DNA from: Flavobacteriales bacterium | Lineage (GTDB): Bacteria > Bacteroidota > Bacteroidia > Flavobacteriales_F > PHOS-HE28 | Length of the DNA: 64,000 nucleotides | Direction: 5' to 3' | Assembly (NCBI GenBank): GCA_019912395.1 | Contig: JAIOIH010000053.1 | Span: 1 to 64,000, forward strand | Shown here: positions 8,742 through 20,421 of the stretch, one piece after another | Layout of the letters: each line of letters starts with the position of its first letter | How positions within the stretch are numbered: position 1 is the first letter of the stretch | The notes under the pieces: generated by a model | Database searches by the model: none | What the model was told of the DNA's origin: nothing | The model's input: only the letters and a program-made list of their open reading frames with translations | Translations under genes and position numbers: made by a program

Positions 8742-9106
8742 GTCCGTGCTGCCCTGCGGGATCGCTTCGGGCCGTATGCTGCGCGCAGCGCAGCACACAA
8801 CCCTCGCGATGACCGAGTGCTGAATTGGGTCCGTGCGTCCCGGCGGGCCGCACATGGCGAGCCACCACGCACGGTCTTCGCGAGCGAGCATTACGCACGG
8901 GAGCGTAATACCAAATCCCATTACAGATCAGTCCGAAGATGCGTCGGCATTTTTTCGCAGGACGAGACGGAGCGATAGTGGCGTAGCCGTAGCTACGGTG
9001 CTGTCTCTCCGGGGAAGTAATGCGGAAAAAGGGCAAGCAGATTGGGCTGATCTGTGGTGGGTTTTGGTATAAGGCCCGCGAAGCGATCCCGCAGAGCGGC
9101 ACGGAC
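8742..9106. repeat. Palindromic dispersed repeat, copy 1 (interrupted by a MITE)
   Basis: The outer ends read GTCCGTGCTGCCCTGCGGG (8742-8760) and the inverted GCAGAGCGGCACGGAC (9091-9106). Inside lies a second nested inverted pair around CTCGCGATGACCG. The element is highly similar to copy 2 at 19946-20157, except that this copy is split at 8908/9070 by a 161-base insertion. It lies between folC and the secreted-protein operon. There is no coding capacity. Confidence 0.75.
8909..9069. mobile_element. MITE-like element with 23-base terminal inverted repeats and TAA target duplication
   Basis: The left end TACCAAATCCCATTACAGAT (from 8909) and the right end (to 9069, reverse complement TACCAAAACCCACCACAGAT) match in 20 of the 23 terminal bases. 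TAA flanks both sides (8906-8908 and 9070-9072). The centre has the perfect palindrome CCGTAGCTACGG. Copy 2 of the host repeat lacks this segment, which supports insertion. A TNA duplication is what IS5-group transposases make, so a parent IS of that group is a reasonable guess. Confidence 0.72.
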
Positions 9107-19945: not shown

Positions 19946-20157
19946 GGCCGGTCCGTGCTGCTCTGCGGGATCGCTTCGGGTTGTATGCTGCGCACAGCGC
20001 AGCACACAACCCTCGCGATGACCGTGCGCTGAATTGGGTCTGTGCGTCCCGGCGGGTCGCACTTGGCGAGCCACAGCGCGCGGTCATCGCGAGCGGGCAT
20101 TGCGCGCGGAGCGCGAAATGCCCGCGAAGCGACCCCGCAGAGCAGCACGGACAGGCC
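19946..20157. repeat. Palindromic dispersed repeat, copy 2 (uninterrupted)
   Basis: About 210 bases with outer inverted ends GTCCGTGCTGCTCTGCGGG (19951-19969) and GCAGAGCAGCACGGAC (20137-20152), and an inner inverted pair CTCGCGATGACCG / CGGTCATCGCGAG. The whole unit could fold into a long imperfect hairpin. It matches copy 1 at 8742-9106 with the MITE removed. The rest of 19934-20268 holds no gene. Confidence 0.75.
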
Positions 20158-20343: not shown

Positions 20344-20347
20344 CTAG

Positions 20348-20410
20348 GGGAGCATAGCTCAGCTGGTTTAGAGCATCCCGCCTACGGGCGGGAGGGTCGC
20401 TGGTCTGAGT
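20348..20410 (+). pseudogene. tRNA-Val-like fragment, anticodon arm palindromic, T-arm lost
   Basis: The first 26 bases equal those of the tRNA-Val at 20422. The anticodon arm is then TCCCGCC-TACG-GGCGGGA (8-base loop region, 7 pairs possible). The sequence breaks down after GCTGGTCTGAG, leaving no T-loop or 3' acceptor strand. Confidence 0.75.
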
Positions 20411-20421
20411 GTTGAAATAAT

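Follow-up and report, generated by a model that had tools for sequence, protein, structure and literature searches.

The window analysed here, a stretch of 64,000 nucleotides of Flavobacteriales DNA, carries a MITE, a non-autonomous DNA transposon that belongs to a previously uncatalogued, genus-specific family. At a probability of about 0.8, we favor an explanation in which this genus-specific element is moved in trans, lineages competent to fold are those that have spread, and the two copies of an outer repeat in the window represent a filled and an unfilled site. The MITE is an ordinary kind of element in a new family, and the evidence for a selected folded form is unusually clear. The copies of many bacterial MITE families are so similar that a functional hairpin is difficult to distinguish from the by-product of a palindrome. 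The family described here extends over some 30 species and is diverged enough for hairpin function to be examined: base pairs persist although the sequence changes, and the two strands do not tolerate mispairs equally. This compensatory conservation, the siting at stop codons, and the likeness of the outer repeat to REP dimers all go beyond the preliminary description of this DNA.

The insertion and its host repeat

The insert runs TACCAAATCCC...GGTTTTGGTA and lies in one arm of copy 1 of a palindromic outer repeat (Table 1). The 161-base length and the flanking TAA duplications agree with the preliminary description. Its 23-base inverted ends are present at both termini but are imperfect, with 20 of 23 positions matching. 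Folded as DNA the insert has an energy of -46.6 kcal/mol (z -9.9), too stable to be a chance fold, and its covariance score is 164.5 bits on the + strand versus 55.4 bits on the - strand. There is no room for a transposase gene in 161 bp, and a coding reading of the conserved interior (ATGCGCCGCTATTTTTTCGCAGG) was rejected, the segment being too short and having no codon-like pattern by eye.

Table 1. Coordinates of the MITE and of the outer repeat in the window.
Feature	Position	Strand	Remark or basis
Outer repeat copy 1	8742..9106	.	MITE interrupts third arm
REP-like unit of copy 1, GATCGCTTCG-[hairpin]-CTCGCGATGAC	8760..8813	-	unit pattern, coordinates
Second REP-like unit of copy 1, GTCTTCGCGAG-[arm with MITE]-CGAAGCGATC	8874..9088	+	sequence
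Target duplication TAA, left	8906..8908	.	sequence
MITE	8909..9069	+ (strand whose fold is conserved)	161 bp; covariance match, fold z -9.9
Terminal inverted repeat, left, TACCAAATCCCATTACAGATCAG	8909..8931	+	20/23 match to right end
Terminal inverted repeat, right, TACCAAAACCCACCACAGATCAG	9047..9069	-	sequence
Target duplication TAA, right	9070..9072	.	sequence
Outer repeat copy 2	19946..20157	.	uninterrupted, cloverleaf fold
First REP-like unit of copy 2	19969..20022	-	unit pattern, coordinates
Second REP-like unit of copy 2; arm that holds MITE in copy 1	20083..20134	+	unit pattern, coordinates

When the insert and one TAA are removed, the 201 bp that remain of copy 1 can be aligned with 202 bp of copy 2 without interruption (89.1% identity), so the empty site is real. 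It is less clean than first described, since the junction reads GAGCG-TAA-GGCCC in copy 1 and GCGCG-AAA-TGCCC in copy 2; the unfilled site is a diverged paralogue and not the identical pre-insertion sequence.

The outer element pairs with itself, as its earlier naming as a palindromic repeat implies, but it does so as a three-armed, REP-like cloverleaf. Copy 2 folds at -110.9 kcal/mol (z -15.3), in the order GGTCCGTGCTGCTCTGCGG-GATCGCTTCG-[arm]-CTCGCGATGAC-[arm]-GTCATCGCGAG-[arm]-CGAAGCGATC-closing strand. Within the genus, 10 genomes contain its unit pattern, CGCTTCG-N22-48-TCGCGATGAC, which was not found in genomes from other families; the hairpin arms vary freely. Close full copies are restricted to the two in the window. 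At the intergenic position orthologous to copy 1, genome G004 has only a short piece, GGCTGGTCCGTGCTGCTC, without the MITE. The preliminary description made its reading hinge on the outer repeat not always being filled, and the other copies, when looked at, lack the insert.

In sequence, the outer repeat resembles a head-to-head (HH) dimer of CGTC-type REPs with enlarged loops. Both have facing GTCATCGCGAG...GAAGCGATC units with ATCGC/GCGAT stems (PMC3733652), and each window copy contains two facing units with an ATYGC stem and a CGTC-type tag (starting at 8760 and 8874, and at 19969 and 20083). The tag itself is GGTC in both window copies and CGTC in relatives. Unlike the HH dimers, which have 4-5 base loops and 8-9 bp stems, the outer repeat has loops of ~22-45 bases that are themselves paired and have grown to hairpin arms of ~30 bases, and its cloverleaf is closed by an additional outer stem, GGTCCGTGCTGCTCTGCGG. 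CGTC-tagged REPs are known in Bacteroidetes, without a dedicated transposase (PMC3733652). We read the outer repeat as a REP-like structure and not as an established transposon. We also note that CGCTTCG-[hairpin]-TCGCGATGAC units form clusters (G028:C75:243-674, G006:C83:3109-3628 and G005:C7:11679-12133), within which the arms are identical or different, as if swapped between units.

Distribution and landing sites of the MITE family

The preliminary description called for a search of this genome and its relatives, and the MITE proves to be multi-copy. With a covariance search, relatives turn up in 33 of 45 genomes of a single Flavobacteriales genus; the window's own genome has 17 matches, G004 has 35 and G001 has 63. 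A DNA search of 58 genomes places the MITE in 20 of 35 from the genus (own genome counted) and in none from 24 other families of the class, and collections of plasmids, phages and viral contigs likewise gave no match. Named records with an exact match to the MITE core are all Flavobacteriales or Bacteroidetes MAGs, and no Rfam covariance model reaches gathering score with it (the best hit, a snoRNA, has E 0.76). The window's genome contains six further full 161-bp copies, and the exact duplications over its seven full copies are TAA (4), TTA (2) and TCA (1). The density in G001 (2.6 Mb, 66% complete) is far above that in other members of the genus, with at least 63 copies, or approximately one per 40 kb.

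Length is 161-162 bp in 71 of the 87 copies taken with flanks, and in 23 copies the terminal inverted repeats match at 19-24 of the outer 30 bases. The extra bases of length variants fall in loops or form added hairpins. Among these variants, L155, L158 (G026) and L169 (G032) carry one extra hairpin, placed in the apical loop in variants of 199-200 bp and in an internal loop in the variant of 183 bp.

Exact 3-bp TNA duplications flank 53 of the 87 copies (TAA 32, TTA 17, TCA 3, TGA 1); the other 34 lack an exact duplication, a point against the favoured explanation that may come from age or misassembly. Where TNA is present on both sides, the middle letter is identical in 53 of 63 copies (42% expected, p ~1e-11), and this correlation shows that the triplet is a duplication and not a fixed part of the MITE. 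Two filled sites, one in G000 at a transporter-like gene's stop codon and one in G032 also at a stop codon, have orthologous sites in G022 that are empty; a G022 copy compared with its G032 site is consistent with an empty orthologous site but is less clean. The family lacks a transposase gene, has terminal inverted repeats, duplicates its target, and is dispersed with empty orthologous sites. The earlier reading of the insert as a mobile MITE is borne out by these many independent insertions, their correlated triplets and the empty sites.

Genes near the copies were called with a home-made scorer of codon usage that had been trained on the window, and the numbers for neighbours and stop codons are therefore approximate. 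For 26 of the 87 copies, the triplet that was duplicated serves as stop codon of the neighbouring gene, whereas this is true of 6% of the usable TWA sites in these loci (p 5e-12). Gene neighbours are convergent in 28 cases versus divergent in 5 (p 7e-5). Two orthologue pairs have a TGA stop in the relative and TAA at the filled site. The preference for stop codons may reflect either target choice or survival. Orientation is only weakly biased, both relative to tandem neighbours (28 versus 19, p 0.24) and at stop codons (19 versus 8, p 0.05), so that a role in the mRNA at the level of the host gains little support.

A strand-specific hairpin and its explanations

Conservation of the hairpin was assessed in a structure alignment (A3) of 69 copies. 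Hairpin cells are paired in 94.8% of instances, and 40 of 55 pairs have double-sided changes. The covariation score is 0.464 versus 0.175 for shuffled alignments (none of 500 shuffles comes up to the real alignment) and falls to 0.05-0.11 when the partner is slid by 1-3 columns. The two strands differ sharply, with an alifold consensus energy of -76.6 on the window's + strand and -18.3 on the - strand.

The mispairs are also asymmetric. With the structure defined from Watson-Crick pairs only, so that pair choice favours neither strand, there are 194 G.T cells versus 60 A.C cells, approximately a threefold excess. Gains mapped on the tree show the same trend (136 versus 54), on both terminal (100 to 40) and internal branches (36 to 14). 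Copies that are antisense to their neighbours have the bias in the same direction (24 versus 6), and C>T and G>A are equally common in paired columns; we therefore rejected transcription-coupled mutation as its cause. A preference of the covariance model for G.U was rejected as a source because the excess persists among copies found by BLAST alone (71 to 25, and in 14 of 16 untied copies). The compensatory changes together with the threefold excess on one strand make it likely that there is selection for folding of the + strand, as RNA or single-stranded DNA. Since a non-autonomous copy drifts freely once inserted, we infer that the constraint acts on lineages that are still spreading, or on the survival of copies in their hosts.

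In the favoured explanation, a transposase supplied in trans would make 3-bp staggered cuts at TNA, mostly TAA or TTA, and the pair of outer REP-like repeats shows one filled and one unfilled site. The lineages that still spread would be those in which one strand folds as a 161-nt hairpin. This folded form would most simply be read-through RNA in 3' UTRs, where a hairpin could blunt harm to neighbouring mRNAs or tune them, as has been proposed for ERIC and Correia; alternatively, it could be single-stranded DNA formed during transposition. A stronger version, to which we would give somewhat less than even odds, is that spread needs the whole of one strand, ends included, to be folded as RNA or single-stranded DNA, with joint selection on transposon and structure, and that the element lands preferentially at stop codons, the stop being restored by the duplication.

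The best of the competing explanations, although an unlikely one, is that this is an ordinary MITE without any RNA or single-stranded DNA function, in which the palindrome is kept by the fit of a transposase to two ends and by template switching from arm to arm. The terminal inverted repeats of subfamilies do co-diverge, as symmetric recognition by a transposase predicts, and there are 158 of the perfect Watson-Crick double changes that template correction predicts. Symmetric recognition or arm-to-arm repair explains the co-varying ends, but leaves the strand asymmetry unexplained: in the terminal, middle and apical parts alike G.T exceeds A.C two- to six-fold, the excess is not reversed in antisense copies, and one U.G wobble (column 48 with 120) persists in 66 of 69 copies. 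Covariation of the apical stem, which lies well away from the termini, is also as strong as that of the ends.

It is far less probable that the cloverleaf carried the insert ancestrally and that copy 2 lost it by precise excision. The genome has just two close copies of the outer repeat, which suits such a loss, but the insert is likewise missing from other relatives of the repeat in the genus, and elsewhere MITE insertions correspond to empty orthologous sites, making gain simpler than excision.

Enzymes of the IS200/IS605 or RAYT type leave no target duplication. Because of the identical triplets at 53 of the 63 TNA-flanked copies, we rejected a single-strand transposon of this kind, its enzyme reading the hairpin of one strand, as the origin of the MITE, and leave it only a very small probability. 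The ends of the MITE, near-perfect inverted repeats that close the whole element, also speak against it, since IS200/IS605 and RAYT elements have none. In favour of such an origin, these enzymes do recognise a hairpin on one particular strand (RAYTs; PMC3733652), and REP-like repeats adjoin the MITE.

If selection for a folded strand is the correct explanation, then the old assumption that MITE hairpin RNA is functional becomes measurable, and the family provides a natural system in which to study insertion at stop codons.

Search for an autonomous partner, and known families

The full IS with TACCAAA-like ends anticipated in the preliminary description was not found, either in an end-pattern scan of G004 or at PF01609 loci in 15 genomes. 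Every TNATACCANNTNNNNNT site of the near-complete G004 (four contigs, 99% complete) was inspected, and these comprise only MITE pairs and unpaired sites, with no partner end at IS distance; among 31 PF01609 (IS4/IS5-type transposase) matches in the 15 genomes none is a TACC-ended IS. The lack of a partner in these scans counts against the favoured explanation; many accepted MITE families have no known partner (PMC2229807). Near TACC sites of G004 there is a second repeat, at L207 and L208, which starts TACCAATTCGTCWTTCACAACC and continues with CTTCCGCAG motifs, and a looser relative is present at L209; only one end of it was found, and it is possibly another MITE or a REP-associated family.

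Among known families the closest parallel is with ERIC (RU-1), a non-coding, palindromic, target-duplicating element of ~127 bp that lies 3' of genes in enterobacteria, and whose transcript is a long hairpin and whose transposase partner is not identified (PMC2229807, PMC10969869). The MITE is likewise short, palindromic and target-duplicating, located 3' of genes and with a hairpin that would form in the transcript. It differs in being 161 bp long, in its TNA rather than TA duplication, in its TACCA ends and in its phylum, and has no evident sequence kinship; stop-codon bias and quantified strand-specific covariation also set it apart. It works like ERIC but is not a member, given its duplication and ends. 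Correia/NEMIS and RUP are also MITEs, 100-160 bp long, that have terminal inverted repeats and duplications, and the NEMIS hairpin RNA is a proposed RNase III target (PMC2229807). Unlike the MITE described here, both have TA at their termini and targets, and RUP has a proposed IS630 partner whereas none was found here; the MITE works like Correia elements too but is not one of them, as ends, length and duplication differ. Neither a strand-specific covariation test nor a stop-codon preference is reported in the descriptions of known families that were sampled.

Elsewhere in the window, between two tRNA-Val genes, positions 20344-20421 contain a degenerate tRNA-like stretch (GGGGAGCATAGCTCAGCTGGTTTAGAGCATCCCGCC...) that is not called by ARAGORN and is apparently a decayed tRNA duplicate.
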